Shown here in pieces: positions 4,351 through 53,484 of a stretch of 64,000 nt of DNA. The stretch covers positions 1 through 64,000 of the forward strand of contig CANQTO010000008.1 in NCBI GenBank assembly GCA_947626785.1. The letters are read 5' to 3'. Both the position numbers and the translations under genes were made by a program. Under the pieces are notes generated by a model. It made no database searches. It was not told the origin of the DNA and saw only the letters and a program-made list of their open reading frames with translations. Positions within the stretch are counted from its first letter, which is position 1. Each line of letters opens with the position of its first letter. The stretch is from an uncultured Oscillospiraceae bacterium (GTDB lineage: Bacteria; Bacillota; Clostridia; Oscillospirales; Oscillospiraceae).

Positions 4351-4383
4351 GGAAGAAAGCAAAAGATTTTAGCTTGTCAAAAC

Positions 4384-19930: not shown

Positions 19931-20047
19931 TGATGTTATTGTATTCCTCTCCCCGCCCGGCGGGCCCTTCTTGTGAATAATGATACCGGGCCGCGGGGAC
20001 CCTCAAAAATCTTAAAAAATAATTCATACTTTTTCTCGCAAAGTACC

Positions 20048-20076
20048 TTGACAGATGAAGTACTTCGTGTTATATT
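20048..20076 (+). promoter_or_regulatory. Promoter of the padR-DUF4097 operon
   Basis: TTGACA (20048-20053), a 17-base spacer and TATATT (20071-20076). The spacer contains a perfect palindrome, so a bound repressor would cover the promoter. Confidence 0.8.
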
Positions 20077-20114
20077 CAGAGCGTAAAGAATACTTCACCT
20101 GTTGAAGTACTTCC
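20056..20114. promoter_or_regulatory. Cluster of GAAGTACTTC operators, probable PadR sites
   Basis: TGAAGTACTTC occurs twice (20056-20066 and 20103-20113), and a related GAATACTTCA lies between them (20088-20097). The first sits in the promoter spacer and the others lie downstream of the -10. Repeated palindromes around the promoter of a padR gene point to autorepression, as is common in this family. Confidence 0.65.
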
Positions 20115-20175
20115 ATTAGTTGGCAGGTCCCGCCAAACGGGCGGCTTCCTGCTCCGGGAAAGGAGGCGAGCGCCC

Positions 20176-20523
20176 ATGTCCATGACCGCCGACACCCTGC
20201 GCGGCAATACGGACACCATCATTCTCACCCTGCTGATGCGGGGGGACAGCTACGGCTACGAGATCAACAAGAGCGTCCAGAGACGGACCAAGGGCGAGTA
20301 CGGCTTCAAGGAAGCCACCCTGTACACCGCCTTCAAGCGCCTGGAGCAAAACGGCTTCATCCGCTCCTACTGGGGCGAGGACGGGCCCGGCGCCCGCCGC
20401 CGGTACTACTCCATCACGGAGGAGGGCCGGCGCCAGTGGGAGGAGAACGTCCGGGATTGGGAGACCACCCGCAGCCTGTTGGACGCGCTGTTCGACCCGG
20501 ATTACGACGACGAGGAGGGCTGA
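20176..20523 (+). CDS. PadR family transcriptional regulator
   Basis: A 115-residue winged-helix repressor. The N-terminal half has the PadR pattern ILTLLMRGDSYGYEINKSV, then ATLYTAFKRLEQNGFI for recognition helix and wing, then ARRRYYSITEEGR. The short C-terminal helix is that of the compact PadR-s2 type, probably for dimer formation. AAAGGAGG lies 9 bases before the ATG. The stop is five bases before the DUF4097 gene, so the two are cotranscribed; this pairing is common in Firmicutes, where the partner is linked to envelope stress. It probably binds the GAAGTACTTC sites in its own promoter. Confidence 0.92.
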   Translation: MSMTADTLRGNTDTIILTLLMRGDSYGYEINKSVQRRTKGEYGFKEATLYTAFKRLEQNGFIRSYWGEDGPGARRRYYSITEEGRRQWEENVRDWETTRSLLDALFDPDYDDEEG

Positions 20524-20528
20524 AGACC

Positions 20529-21779
20529 ATGGAAGCTGTCAGGATGCGCTTTATCGCCGAAGTCTCCGCCCGTTTTGCCGCCGCGAGAGACAGCGAAGCC
20601 AAGGCGGAGCTCATCGAAGAGCTGGCGGACAATCTGGTCCTGCGCTATCAGGAGCAGCTGGCCTCCGGCGCCGGAGAGGACGAGGCCTATGCCGCGGCCC
20701 TCAACGGCCTGGGGGATGTGAGCGAGCTGATCAGCTACCTCAACAGCGTCTCCGCCGGCCAGGCGGCCTCCTCGGACCCCCTGGAGAGCCTGCTCAACGA
20801 CCTGGAGGACATCACACAGAACGTGTTCTTCAAGGCCAAGACCGCCATCGAGGACGTGAAAAAGCGTCTGCGGGAGGAAGAGAGCGCTTCCTGCGGCGCT
20901 CCCCGGAGCCGCAGCGGCGGCCGGCGCGAGAGCGGCCGGCAGGCGAGCGCGGAGCGGGAGAGTCTCTCCCCGGAGCTGCCCCTCTCGGCCAAGGATCTGC
21001 GGGGCGTGGACGTGCGCATCGTCAACGGGGACGTGAAGCTCAGCTTCTCCGAGAGCGAGGACGGCAACGTGCTCTTCTCCGGCAACGTGGAGGAGCTGGA
21101 GCTCAGCCGCACGGCGGACGGGGTCCTGCTCATCCGCCAGGGCCGCACGGCCAGCTCCTCCTCCCTTTTCCGCCTGGGCCTGAGCTCCTCGGATGTGGAG
21201 CTCTGCCTGCCCCGACGGGACTGGGAATTCGTCCAGGTGAACACCGCCAACGGCGATGTGGAGCTGGACGGGCGCTGCCCGGTGGGCTCCGTCTCCGTCA
21301 AGACCGCCACCGGCGACATCTGCGGAGAGCTGGAGGCCTGCTCCGAGCTGACGCTGTACACCGCCAGCGGCGATGTGGACTGGCACGGCAGCGCCGGCAC
21401 GGCCTGCGTCGAGAGCGCCAGCGGAGACCTGAGCCTGGACGGGCGCTTTGAGGACCTGACGGTGACTACCGTCAGCGGGGATGTGGACCTGACCGGGTCC
21501 CTGGGCGAGGCCAAGTGCTCCACCATCAGCGGGGAACTGGCCCTGGAGAGCCTGACGCTCCCCCGGAGCCTGAGCGCCTCCTCCAAATCCGGAGACTGCT
21601 TCCTCCGCCTGCCCGGCGCGCCGGAGCAGCCCTTCTCCGTCCGGGTCTCCACCCGCAGCGGCGATGTGAGCTCCGCTTTCCCCCTCCGGCGGGCACCCGG
21701 CGGTTTCATCTGCGGCCAGGGCGGCCCGGAGTACGCCCTCTCCACCGTCAGCGGCGACGTGCAGATCGAAAAGCTCTAA
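20529..21779 (+). CDS. DUF1700/DUF4097 beta-repeat protein
   Basis: A 416-residue protein in three parts. Residues 1 to about 90 are a helical DUF1700-like region with SEAKAELIEELADNL. A charged Arg/Ser/Glu-rich linker spans about 110-155. The C-terminal DUF4097 region is built from short strands that each end in a turn such as NGDV, TGDI, SGDV or SGEL, repeated about ten times; this is the pattern of a right-handed beta-solenoid. No signal peptide or membrane helix is visible. Relatives sit beside PadR regulators or envelope stress systems such as Lia; their exact role is unknown. GGAGGG precedes the ATG at 20529, and a mobile element has inserted directly after the stop codon. Confidence 0.82.
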   Translation: MEAVRMRFIAEVSARFAAARDSEAKAELIEELADNLVLRYQEQLASGAGEDEAYAAALNGLGDVSELISYLNSVSAGQAASSDPLESLLNDLEDITQNVFFKAKTAIEDVKKRLREEESASCGAPRSRSGGRRESGRQASAERESLSPELPLSAKDLRGVDVRIVNGDVKLSFSESEDGNVLFSGNVEELELSRTADGVLLIRQGRTASSSSLFRLGLSSSDVELCLPRRDWEFVQVNTANGDVELDGRCPVGSVSVKTATGDICGELEACSELTLYTASGDVDWHGSAGTACVESASGDLSLDGRFEDLTVTTVSGDVDLTGSLGEAKCSTISGELALESLTLPRSLSASSKSGDCFLRLPGAPEQPFSVRVSTRSGDVSSAFPLRRAPGGFICGQGGPEYALSTVSGDVQIEKL

Positions 21780-21940
21780 GGAAACACTGAATAAATCGCC
21801 GCACGCATCTGGACGGCTGATTTTCCGCCATATTTAGTCTCGAAATCTTGAAATACACAAAGTATTCCTGCGATTTCTCGCCGTCATCTGACGAAAAATC
21901 ATCTCGCCCATCTGCATACTTCGACTTAATCAGTGCTTCC
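21780..21940 (-). mobile_element. MITE-like element, copy 1 (161 bp)
   Basis: The ends GGAAACACTGAATAAATCG (21780-21798) and CGACTTAATCAGTGCTTCC (21922-21940) are inverted repeats of each other at 16 of 19 positions. CTAA stands on both outer sides (21776-21779 and 21941-21944), a probable 4-bp target duplication that includes the stop codon of the DUF4097 gene. The inside is the reverse complement of copy 3 at 53296, with the same length of 161 bp. No transposase is encoded, so it is non-autonomous. A small reading frame inside it (from 21848) is part of the repeat, not a gene. Confidence 0.85.
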
Positions 21941-22024
21941 CTAAACCTACTTTGTTTAGCCCCGCGGGATGCGGATCATATATTAAATAATAAAAAATTC
22001 TGTAATGAGAAAGGAAATATGACC

Positions 22025-22159
22025 ATGAAGACTTCCGTGTATTTTGACAACATCCACCGTTTCGGCTCCTTCGACACCGACCTGAGCATGTTCCACATCA
22101 CCTCCGCTATGCGCTGGTTCGGACCCAAGGTGGACCTCTTCAACAACAGCGTGCGCTGA
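22025..22159 (+). CDS. Small unknown protein, 44 residues
   Basis: A short frame starting MKTSVYFDNIHRFGSFDTD and ending in FNNSVR, rich in aromatic residues (six Phe, one Tyr, one Trp). AAGGA at 22011-22015 lies 9 bases before the ATG at 22025; an ATG at 22019 is too close to that site. The upstream 60 bases are very AT-rich and include TATATT at 21979-21984, a possible -10. A terminator begins 52 bases after the stop. It has no leader-core cleavage motif and no modification enzyme nearby, so it is not clearly a RiPP precursor. It could be a regulatory or toxin peptide, a leader peptide, or a gene remnant beside the mobile element. Confidence 0.5.
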   Translation: MKTSVYFDNIHRFGSFDTDLSMFHITSAMRWFGPKVDLFNNSVR

Positions 22160-22210: not shown

Positions 22211-22242
22211 AAAGCTCCGGCTCAGATGAGCCGGAGCTTTTA
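22211..22242 (+). terminator. Intrinsic terminator after the small peptide gene
   Basis: AAAGCTCCGGCTCA (22211-22224) pairs with TGAGCCGGAGCTTTT (22227-22241). The same hairpin, differing by one internal base, recurs at 22921-22951. Confidence 0.85.
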
Positions 22243-22334
22243 GCTTATCGAAAAGCGGTCGTTTTATGGACTTTTGGGCCGCGCTGTGATAACATGGGTT
22301 CTGATAATATCGTACAGGGGGTGGGTCAGGCACC

Positions 22335-22901
22335 ATGATCAGCGTACAGACCGCCGAGAGTATCCTGTCCAACAGCGATAAGCTGTTGACCGGGATGAGG
22401 AAATATAAGAAGATCATGGACGCCCTCTACTGGACAGATGTGTCGGCCGACCGGGATTTCCAGCGCGCGTTCAACGATTTTTTCGTCATGCGCTCCAGAA
22501 AGAGCCAATATTACGAGATGTTCTATTCGTATCTGGAAGAGAAGAAAGATACGGGCACCACCTTCGAGGAGACGCTGGATCATCTGAACAAAGCCGAGGG
22601 GCGGTTTGAGATATCCTTTTCAAGCAAGCTGATACACGTACTCAATCCCAACAGGCCGATCTGGGATCATAACGTGGCGGTGGAGCATTTCAGAATGAGG
22701 CTGCCCGGCTACGGAGCGGGGATCCCGGCCCGGCGCAGAGAGATCATCCGGGCCTATCACGAATTTTGCAGCAGGTTCTATGAATATCTGGAGTCCAGTC
22801 AGGGGCAGACGATACTCAGGCTGTTCAACGACAAGTATCCCCATACCGGCTTTACGGACGCAAAAAAGCTCGATTTTCTCCTGTGGGCAGATCATGACTG
22901 A
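22335..22901 (+). CDS. Hypothetical protein, 188 residues
   Basis: Not recognised. A mixed, mostly helical soluble protein with no signal peptide or membrane segment, beginning MISVQTAESILSNSDKLL. Distinct segments are SFSSKLIHVLNPNRPIWDHN (about 94-113) and GFTDAKKLDFLLW near the C terminus. The first recalls a helix-loop pattern seen in some DNA-glycosylase-like or defence-associated proteins, but that is only an impression. The ribosome binding site is weak (GGGGGTG) and the base composition is less GC-rich than the flanking genes. The gene is enclosed by two almost identical terminators, which suggests it came in as a cassette. Confidence 0.7.
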   Translation: MISVQTAESILSNSDKLLTGMRKYKKIMDALYWTDVSADRDFQRAFNDFFVMRSRKSQYYEMFYSYLEEKKDTGTTFEETLDHLNKAEGRFEISFSSKLIHVLNPNRPIWDHNVAVEHFRMRLPGYGAGIPARRREIIRAYHEFCSRFYEYLESSQGQTILRLFNDKYPHTGFTDAKKLDFLLWADHD

Positions 22902-22920
22902 AAAATTCAAATACGACCTA

Positions 22921-22951
22921 AAAAGCTCCGGCTCAGACGAGCCGGAGCTTT
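22921..22951. terminator. Bidirectional terminator between the unknown gene and cinA
   Basis: AAAGCTCCGGCTC (22922-22934) pairs with GAGCCGGAGCTTT (22939-22951). On the minus strand the stem runs into TTTTTA, ending the comM-thiI-cinA operon. On the plus strand it follows the 188-residue gene. It is a near copy of the hairpin at 22211. Confidence 0.85.
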
Positions 22952-22955
22952 CAGT

Positions 22956-24209
22956 TTATTCAACAGGCAGATCCGTCAGCCAGCGGCGCATCATGTCGAA
23001 GGCGTGGTTGCCGGCCATGCGGCGGATGAAGCTGCGGGTGCGCCAGGCGCCCATGTGGGTCTCGCGCACGTAGGTCCGCCCCTCCACCGCCATGGAGATG
23101 AACACGGTCCCCACCTCGTGGACCCCGTCCCCGTCGGGTCCGGCCAGGCCCGTGACGCCCAGGCCGATGTCCGCCCCGGTGAGGGCCCGGACGCCCTCGG
23201 CCATGGCCTTAGCCACCTCGTAGCTGACGGCGCCCTTCTCCTCGATCAGGGCCGGGTCGATGCCCAGGACGCGGGCCTTGACCTCATTGGTATAGGTGAC
23301 GGCCCCGCCCAAATAGACGGCGCTGGCCCCGGGGATCTCGGTAAAGCGGCTGCCGATATCGCCGCCGGTGCAGCTCTCGGCGGCGGCAAAGGTCAGGCCC
23401 CGCTCCTTCATCAGCGGCAGCACCGCCTCCTCGATGCACTCCACGTCCACCCCATAGACGACCTCGCCCAGACGCTCCCGCACGTGCTCCATCACCGGCC
23501 GGATCATGGCCTCGGCCTCCGCTTCGCTGTGGGCCTTGGCGGTCACTTGCAAGAGGCAGTCACACTCCTTGGCGTAGGGGGCCATGGTGGGGTTCGTCAT
23601 GACGTTCATCTCGTCCCGGAACAGGTCGTCCACGGCGCTCTCGCCCATGCCGAAGACGCGGACCGAATGGGAGACGATCTGTTCGTCGGAGAGCCTTTTC
23701 AGGTAGGGGATGCCGTAGGCCTCCATCATGGGGCAGCACTCCTTGGGAGGGCCGGGGAACATGAGCACGGTCTTCCCGTCCTTCTCGAAGGCGCAGCCGG
23801 GGGCCGTGCCCCACAGGTTATGGAACACCGTGGAGCCCTCCGGCAGCAGGGCCTGGGAGAAGTTGTTGGGGGTCAGCTGCTTGCCGCCCTTGATGTAGTC
23901 ATACATGGTGTCCAGCTCCGCCTGGACCGGCACAAGGGGCAGGCCGAAGGCCTCGGCCAGGATCTGCTTGGTCAGATCGTCGCAGGTGGGGCCCAGGCCG
24001 CCGGTGGTGATGAGGATGTCCGCCCGGCCCTTGGCGATCTCCACGCACTGGCGCAGGCGCTGGGGATTGTCGCCCACCACGGTGTGGTATTTCACGTTGA
24101 TGCCGATCTTCGACAGCATCTCCGACACGTCCCGGGCGTCGGTATTGGTCACGTGGCCCAGCAGCAGCTCGGTGCCCACGGAGATGATCTCGGTGTCATA
24201 AGCTCTCAT
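22956..24209 (-). CDS. cinA: CinA-type nicotinamide-nucleotide amidase
   Basis: A 417-residue two-domain protein. Residues 5 to about 170 are a MoaB/MogA-like fold (EIISVGTELLLGH, TTGGLGPTCDDLT) that in CinA acts on ADP-ribose. Residues about 255-410 are the nicotinamide mononucleotide deamidase domain with the catalytic serine in AAESCTGGDIGS near residue 276 and VTGLAGPDGDG. CinA recycles pyridine nucleotides and is co-regulated with competence in some Firmicutes. It is the last gene of comM-thiI-cinA and overlaps thiI by 14 bases. Confidence 0.94.
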   Translation of the reverse strand: MRAYDTEIISVGTELLLGHVTNTDARDVSEMLSKIGINVKYHTVVGDNPQRLRQCVEIAKGRADILITTGGLGPTCDDLTKQILAEAFGLPLVPVQAELDTMYDYIKGGKQLTPNNFSQALLPEGSTVFHNLWGTAPGCAFEKDGKTVLMFPGPPKECCPMMEAYGIPYLKRLSDEQIVSHSVRVFGMGESAVDDLFRDEMNVMTNPTMAPYAKECDCLLQVTAKAHSEAEAEAMIRPVMEHVRERLGEVVYGVDVECIEEAVLPLMKERGLTFAAAESCTGGDIGSRFTEIPGASAVYLGGAVTYTNEVKARVLGIDPALIEEKGAVSYEVAKAMAEGVRALTGADIGLGVTGLAGPDGDGVHEVGTVFISMAVEGRTYVRETHMGAWRTRSFIRRMAGNHAFDMMRRWLTDLPVE

Positions 24210-40769: not shown

Positions 40770-40798
40770 ATGAAAGACCTCCGAAAGAAGAAATTATA

Positions 40799-41095
40799 GG
40801 AAGCACTGATTAAATCGAAGTATGCAGATGGGCGAGATGATTTTTCGCCAGATGACGGCGAGAAATCGCAGGAATACTGCGTCCTCACAAGCTTCGCTTA
40901 TTCGCTTCCGTGTATACACGAAAGCTCATTCACGCCGCTGCTCGTCCTTCCAAAATCAAAGCGTACGCTTTGATTTTGATAGGAAGAAGGAAGGAGCGGA
41001 TATGGAGCTTTCTGCTTCAGCAGGAAGCGGAATGGAGCGAGTTTCTTCTGACGCTCAGCCGCCCAGATGTATACGGCGATTTATTCAGTGTTTCC
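40799..41095 (+). mobile_element. MITE-like element, copy 2 (297 bp, expanded centre)
   Basis: The ends GGAAGCACTGATTAAATCG (40799-40817) and CGATTTATTCAGTGTTTCC (41077-41095) match as inverted repeats at 17 of 19 positions. The first 80 bases match copy 3, then the centre differs and is longer. It holds a perfect 28-bp palindrome at 40951-40978 with the centre GCGTACGC. The outer flanks TATA and CATA could be a decayed 4-bp target duplication. There is no transposase gene. A reading frame of the downstream transporter runs back into the element but has no start signal there. Confidence 0.78.
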
Positions 41096-53292: not shown

Positions 53293-53295
53293 AAA

Positions 53296-53456
53296 GGAAA
53301 CGCTGAATAAATCGACGTGTGCAGATGGGCGAGATGATTTTTCGCCAGATGACGGCGAGAAATCGCAGGAATACTTTGTGTATTTCAAGATTTCGAGACT
53401 AAATATGGCGGAAAATCAGCCGGCCAGATGTATATGGCGATTTATTCAGCGTTTCC
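53296..53456 (+). mobile_element. MITE-like element, copy 3 (161 bp)
   Basis: Perfect 19-bp terminal inverted repeats GGAAACGCTGAATAAATCG (53296-53314) and its complement (53438-53456), with a further imperfectly matching 30 bases on each side. TAAA stands directly outside both ends (53292-53295 and 53457-53460), a probable target duplication. Inside it is the reverse complement of copy 1. The element lies wholly between the promoter and the ribosome binding site of the FNT gene. It has no transposase. Confidence 0.88.
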
Positions 53457-53484
53457 TAAACAAAAAACACGGGAGGACAAGCCT

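Follow-up and report, generated by a model that had tools for sequence, protein, structure and literature searches.

A foreign gene between two near-identical terminator stem-loops at cinA, and a possible link to IS1182-type transposition

Main finding

In the 64,000-nucleotide stretch of DNA analysed here (the window), a foreign gene for a 188-residue protein, g188, lies between two near-identical stem-loops, T1 and T2, at the end of cinA. We think it likely that g188 was inserted here with duplication of the terminator. In the mechanism that we propose, g188 would have arrived by horizontal transfer together with its own promoter, as an insert of one gene at the cinA terminator. The terminator stem-loop would have been copied in the process, after which the upstream unit would end at T1 and cinA at T2. 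The likeliest agent would be an IS1182-type transposase acting in trans on a transposase-less element, with g188 as a passenger of stem-loop-targeted transposition. This agent is suggested because such elements in the genus sit beside terminators, several of them with the whole stem-loop on both sides; we regard the case for it as evenly balanced. The positions of the features are collected in Table 1.

Table 1. Features of the locus between the PadR-DUF4097 unit and cinA (window positions).
Feature	Position	Strand	Remark
DUF4097-type beta-repeat gene (name tentative)	20529..21779	+	block with PadR and argG-argH lies elsewhere relative to cinA in G124 and G018
Another MITE-like repeat copy (GGAAACACTGA...TCAGTGCTTCC)	21780..21945	.	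next to the PadR-DUF4097-small-peptide unit
Small peptide gene, 46 codons	22019..22159	+	follows DUF4097; G018 and G124 have divergent homologues at the same place relative to DUF4097
Stem-loop T1 (distal copy)	22211..22240	.	at the terminator position of the PadR-DUF4097-small-peptide unit
Left residual insert end (TAGCTTATCGAAAAG...)	22241..22265	+	agrees with the IS1182-type terminal repeat consensus at 12/14 positions
g188 upstream/promoter stretch	22266..22334	+	homologous to the Lachnospiraceae copy (alignment)
g188, 188 aa	22335..22901	+	foreign gene; predicted HhH-GPD-like fold
Right residual insert end	22903..22921	+	begins with AG when read as its reverse complement (AGGTCGTATTTGAA), but agrees with the terminal repeat at 8/14 positions only
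Stem-loop T2	22922..22951	.	serves both cinA (-) and g188 (+) as terminator; cinA stop codon 4 nt away
cinA	22956..24209	-	convergent host gene, end abuts T2

The stem-loop pair

T1 reads AAAGCTCCGGCTC-AGAT-GAGCCGGAGCTTT and T2 reads AAAGCTCCGGCTC-AGAC-GAGCCGGAGCTTT; each is 30 nt long, the stems are identical, the orientation is the same and a single loop base differs (29/30 matching). An earlier note on this DNA had described near-identical hairpins with one base different, and the pair is indeed real, although the note's start for T2 (22921) was one base early. The arm pattern has two matches in the window against none in 100 shuffles; across the whole of the genome it is found at the T1 and T2 sites only, and a search of 40 congeners gave no match. 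The folding energies of T1 and T2 are -28.1 and -24.8 kcal/mol, respectively (z about -6 against shuffles). Read toward cinA, T2 has a good T-run (CTTTTTAGG), and on the + strand T1 has CTTTTAG; a terminator consensus scan flagged T2 on the + strand only.

Two alternative readings concern the hairpin pair itself. The terminator could have been duplicated in place, by slippage or gene conversion, or the two hairpins could have converged, in either case independently of g188; the terminators of these genes differ between species, which implies a fast turnover. That the two match so closely and point the same way, as a pair found nowhere else in the genome and with a foreign gene between its members, makes this very improbable. 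The suggestion in the earlier note that the terminators mark a cassette site, weighed here as a reusable one, fares worse still: it takes from the data nothing beyond the arrangement itself, the hairpin occurs twice in the genome and is absent in the 40 congeners, no other gene was seen between such hairpins in congeners, and there is no integron-type core in the hairpin. We give it almost no weight.

g188 is a foreign gene

g188 is the sole ORF between T1 and T2, with a GC content of 0.52 against 0.665 for cinA, in line with the single lower-GC gene of the earlier note; the DUF4097-type gene has 0.69. It is present in seven of 102 genomes of the genus, this one included. It was absent downstream of cinA in all 20 congener cinA regions searched, and the two copies that were read in context (G034 and G027) lie in unrelated places. 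A scan of one genome per species found 94 relatives, of which 80 were kept, in Bacillota and other phyla. The closest is in a Lachnospiraceae MAG (L102), with 92% amino-acid identity; the homology runs from 22266, in the promoter region, to the stop codon only, and neither hairpin is present. As this best relative has the promoter and ORF in common with g188 and lacks both hairpins, the hairpins belong to the cinA site and one of them is probably a duplicate. The rarity and foreign character of the gene, together with its absence from the congener cinA regions and the lack of hairpins in L102, support the earlier proposal of an insertion at the cinA terminator with duplication. Relatives that keep g188 and both terminators, which the note had named as the finding that would overturn it, were looked for and not found.

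The L102 copy is the cargo of an integrase element: genes for a serine recombinase and a tyrosine integrase precede it, and the sequence downstream looks, by eye, like the 3' end of a tmRNA. Phage_integrase was found in 3/100 neighbours, and other neighbours include type I specificity subunits; no g188 match was found in phage records. Fusions to HD or HTH domains occur in some relatives and, as judged by eye, fusions to apparent MazG-type or nuclease domains in others. Away from this locus, genes like g188, with their predicted likeness to glycosylases, occur on integrase elements and close to genes for restriction or defence. Among 84 loci with g188 relatives, none was convincingly bracketed by doubled terminators. 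One locus with identical hairpins around the relative (L142) was set aside, as the stretch in which it lies is rich in repeats, has tRNA-like ends and lacks a terminal repeat of the IS1182 type.

Rearrangement of the cinA region between species

The unit to the left of T1 looks like PadR, a DUF4097-type gene and a small peptide. To the right of T2 lies the convergent cinA, followed by thiI, comM and aspS, a block that is kept in many relatives. The region downstream of cinA is rearranged between species: the nearest relatives, G018 and G124 (about 88% nucleotide identity), have a single hairpin of different sequence after cinA and other downstream genes. G124 has the order argH-argG-PadR-DUF4097 as in the window, but on a different contig from cinA; in G018 PadR-DUF4097 is inverted beside argG, which is not so in G124 or in the window (20015-21772). 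The displacement of the argG-argH/PadR-DUF4097 block from cinA in both species makes the stretch between the blocks an interspecies breakpoint. No exact empty site was seen in the congener cinA downstream regions, including those of G018 and G124, because these regions are rearranged and the two nearest relatives carry a different hairpin and different genes. The 3'-UTR ahead of T1 resembles, by eye, its counterpart in G018.

Two side observations concern this region. Three species have retained a fast-evolving small peptide of about 45-55 aa behind the DUF4097-type gene (22019-22159 in the window, 8500-8336 (-) in locus L100 of G018 and 7154-6987 (-) in locus L206 of G124; homologues judged by eye). 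A second MITE-like repeat, with ends GGAAACACTGA.../...TCAGTGCTTCC, occurs in the window at 21780-21945, 40797-41095 and 53294-53457 and in about a dozen places in the genome, and one copy edges the synteny breakpoint at the cinA locus.

Predicted fold and candidate function of g188

A structure model of g188 was built from 71 relatives, with a pLDDT of 95.9. A Foldseek search with this model gave a best E of 0.78, which is not significant, with an OGG2 glycosylase in the top row. In a structural alignment all 50 chains listed were HhH-GPD enzymes; the best alignment had a Z of 8.0 over 150 residues with an r.m.s.d. of 3.5, a Z value near which, by the tool's own warning, the likeness can mean merely a shared arrangement. 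The chains include TmOGG2 (3n0u), MjOGG (3knt) and MagIII (1pu7); the identities are 5-13% and g188 has no Pfam match of its own (none at E<=1). A few relatives match DUF6308 weakly. No match to g188 was found in PADLOC-DB, which holds known anti-phage defence families, and NCBIfam had no fitting model. Lys98 and Asp111 are invariant in the 71 family members and resemble the catalytic Lys/Asp motif as far as the sequences can tell. g188 thus probably has an HhH-GPD DNA-glycosylase-like fold and, as mobile-element cargo, could act on modified or damaged DNA, for example that of phages. As a separate observation, a relative on a Caulobacter plasmid (L184, 5935-6519) lies beside queC, dpdA and DpdB-like genes. 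These form a cluster for 7-deazaguanine DNA modification, which may hint at the substrate.

The ends of the insert

The g188 insert abuts a stem-loop on both sides, as would an element that targets stem-loops. Its first bases, AGCTTATCGAAAAG, agree at 12 of 14 positions with the consensus of the IS1182-type terminal repeat, a score reached at 10 of 20000 random positions, for a motif that was noticed after the fact. The sequence AGCTTATCGA has three sites in the 2.1 Mb searched, two of them directly after a stem-loop. Taken as mutual inverted repeats, the two ends of the insert are not significant (P about 0.08). A further candidate, C6:11991 (a hairpin plus AGCTTATCGAATAT), was dropped, as a second hairpin is absent nearby.

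Several findings tell against an IS1182-type agent. There is no IS1182 transposase in the insert, of which g188 is the sole gene, and a search of the genome found no match to this family either, although multicopy elements are often lost from MAGs; on these grounds the g188 insert is not classed with the IS1182 elements. At the right end, agreement with the terminal repeat is poor, at 8/14 positions. In addition, there is a weak ungapped similarity 3' of the hairpins, between 22241-22255 and 22952-22966 (10/15, P about 0.002-0.003), of which the stretch on the T2 side is the end of cinA; it fits a longer duplication that includes the end of cinA, with a boundary past the repeat-like motif. An alternative boundary of this sort was tried and rejected: it would give a 45-bp duplication and an insert that ends in GGTCGTTTT / GGTCGTATT, which are not significant as inverted repeats.

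The same similarity, running past the hairpin into the end of cinA, lends something to a different origin: illegitimate or homologous recombination, for instance the mis-excision of an integrase element, could have duplicated about 45 bp, terminator plus cinA end, with no IS1182 transposase involved. That g188 relatives are the cargo of integrase elements and that the interval is a synteny breakpoint relative to G018 and G124, with a MITE at its edge, fit this as well; what it does not account for is that the duplication centres on a stem-loop, just as in the MITE and IS1182 insertions of the genome and genus. We consider this origin unlikely, though the foremost of the alternatives. A two-step history is more improbable still: an IS1182-type MITE would have inserted first and doubled the terminator, and g188 would later have replaced the interior of the MITE by recombination. 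The repeat-like left end retained directly after T1 and the presence of about 20-25 such MITEs in the genome agree with this; no other MITE sequence remains in the insert and two events are required.

Doubled terminators elsewhere in the genome

Further evidence for an IS1182-type agent comes from other sites. Doubled terminators are found again in this genome next to mobile elements of the IS1182 type, a pattern that the earlier note overlooked. In a hairpin-pair survey of a 464-kb sample of the genome, hairpins matching at >=80% made up 3/95 of the nearby pairs and 3/4656 of the pairs compared at a distance. The other two nearby matching pairs bracket members of one MITE family, and their hairpins are alike within a site and unlike between sites; this argues for a target duplication rather than a sequence carried by the element. 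A second scan, of 1.0 Mb, added doubled hairpins at C10:17733/17984 and in G012. The other close pairs from that scan (L039, L040, L041, L061, L218, L220 and L226) were set aside, some after inspection; they include coding-sequence repeats, tandem genes and another repeat family.

The bracketed MITEs are 196-219 bp long. The copies in the genome, some of them partial, have subfamily ends AG(C/A)(T/G/C)TGTAGACAAA or AG..TGTCAAAAAA. Where the left end could be defined, it abuts a stem-loop in 11 of 16 copies, against 35 of 2000 random positions. In four of the 16 the hairpins on the two sides are identical or nearly so, one being a 41-bp perfect copy, and at C1:38485 the stems of the pair differ by compensating changes. 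MITEs with a doubled terminator lie, for instance, at G000:C10:14209, C18:3619 and C5:49989. Empty sites of the MITE insertions were sought in the available sequence and none was found.

Three more sites were noted in passing. The stretch 6634-~6830 of the window resembles the IS1182-type MITE at G000:C10:17762 (AGACTGTAGATAAA...), and at 4371 there is a second terminal-repeat-like site (AGCTTGTCAAAACG) downstream of a hairpin-like stretch. On G000:C56 and C57 (L233 and L240) two MITE copies continue into one shared sequence (AATCGGGTAGGAGGGGGTGGCTAACC...), which lies near a contig end and looks like the end of a group II intron.

IS1182-family elements in the genus

Relatives of the transposase are present in 16 of the 102 genomes of the genus. 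In the sister species G018 a DUF772 transposase lies directly after a terminator hairpin and has the same terminal repeat as the MITEs. The intact 507-aa transposase of G085 and the copy in G016 score above the NCBIfam IS1182 cut-off of 270 bits (full elements L270 and L287, with 444.9 and 296.7 bits). An example of an intact element is G085:C52. Two elements, L278 (G120) and L287 (G016), are bracketed by identical stem-loops, of 39 and 30 bp, just outside the repeats. Five full copies (L270, L272, L276, L277 and L281) have a stem-loop outside each end, with different sequences. This could be because copies recombined with one another, because the elements inserted between two terminators, or because of decay; doubling is either not universal or is blurred there by later change. 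By analogy, the cinA insertion and the doubling at IS1182 elements and MITEs may well share their machinery. The broader statement, that an IS1182-type lineage in this genus duplicates the whole terminator stem-loop, leaves both neighbours with a terminator and carries passengers such as g188, we put forward tentatively, a little below an even chance.

Comparison with known systems

An integron gene cassette carries attC with RYYYAAC/GTTRRRY cores in an array; the T1/T2 hairpin shows no such core by eye and has two copies genome-wide. The IS1182-family MITEs, of about 200 bp, have terminal repeats (AG..TGTAGACAAA / AG..TGTCAAAAAA) in common with IS1182 copies in congeners, whereas the g188 insert is 681 bp long, bears a gene and is repeat-like at one end only.

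Stem-loop-targeting transposition has so far been described as destroying its target. If the elements copy the stem-loop, an insertion at a gene end would be nearly harmless, which would explain the build-up of elements and passenger genes between genes, and doubled terminators would be a simple sequence signature for spotting such inserts. It would also be natural evidence for a pathway hitherto drawn only as a model: in the open-licence papers searched, stem-loop duplication by IS1182 appears as a hypothetical pathway only, and the elements described here look like instances of it in nature. IS1272 and TnSha1 of staphylococci, which belong to the IS1182 family, target stem-loops, often terminators, without sequence specificity, and TnSha1 carries the passenger gene sh-fabI by way of a degenerate outer repeat; in the published insertions the stem-loop was deleted or replaced, with no target duplication (PMC4923244, PMC5678879). 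The present elements likewise sit at stem-loops and terminators, and the g188 insert, with g188 as its putative passenger, would resemble TnSha1, but at cinA and several of the other sites the stem-loop stands on both sides rather than being lost.
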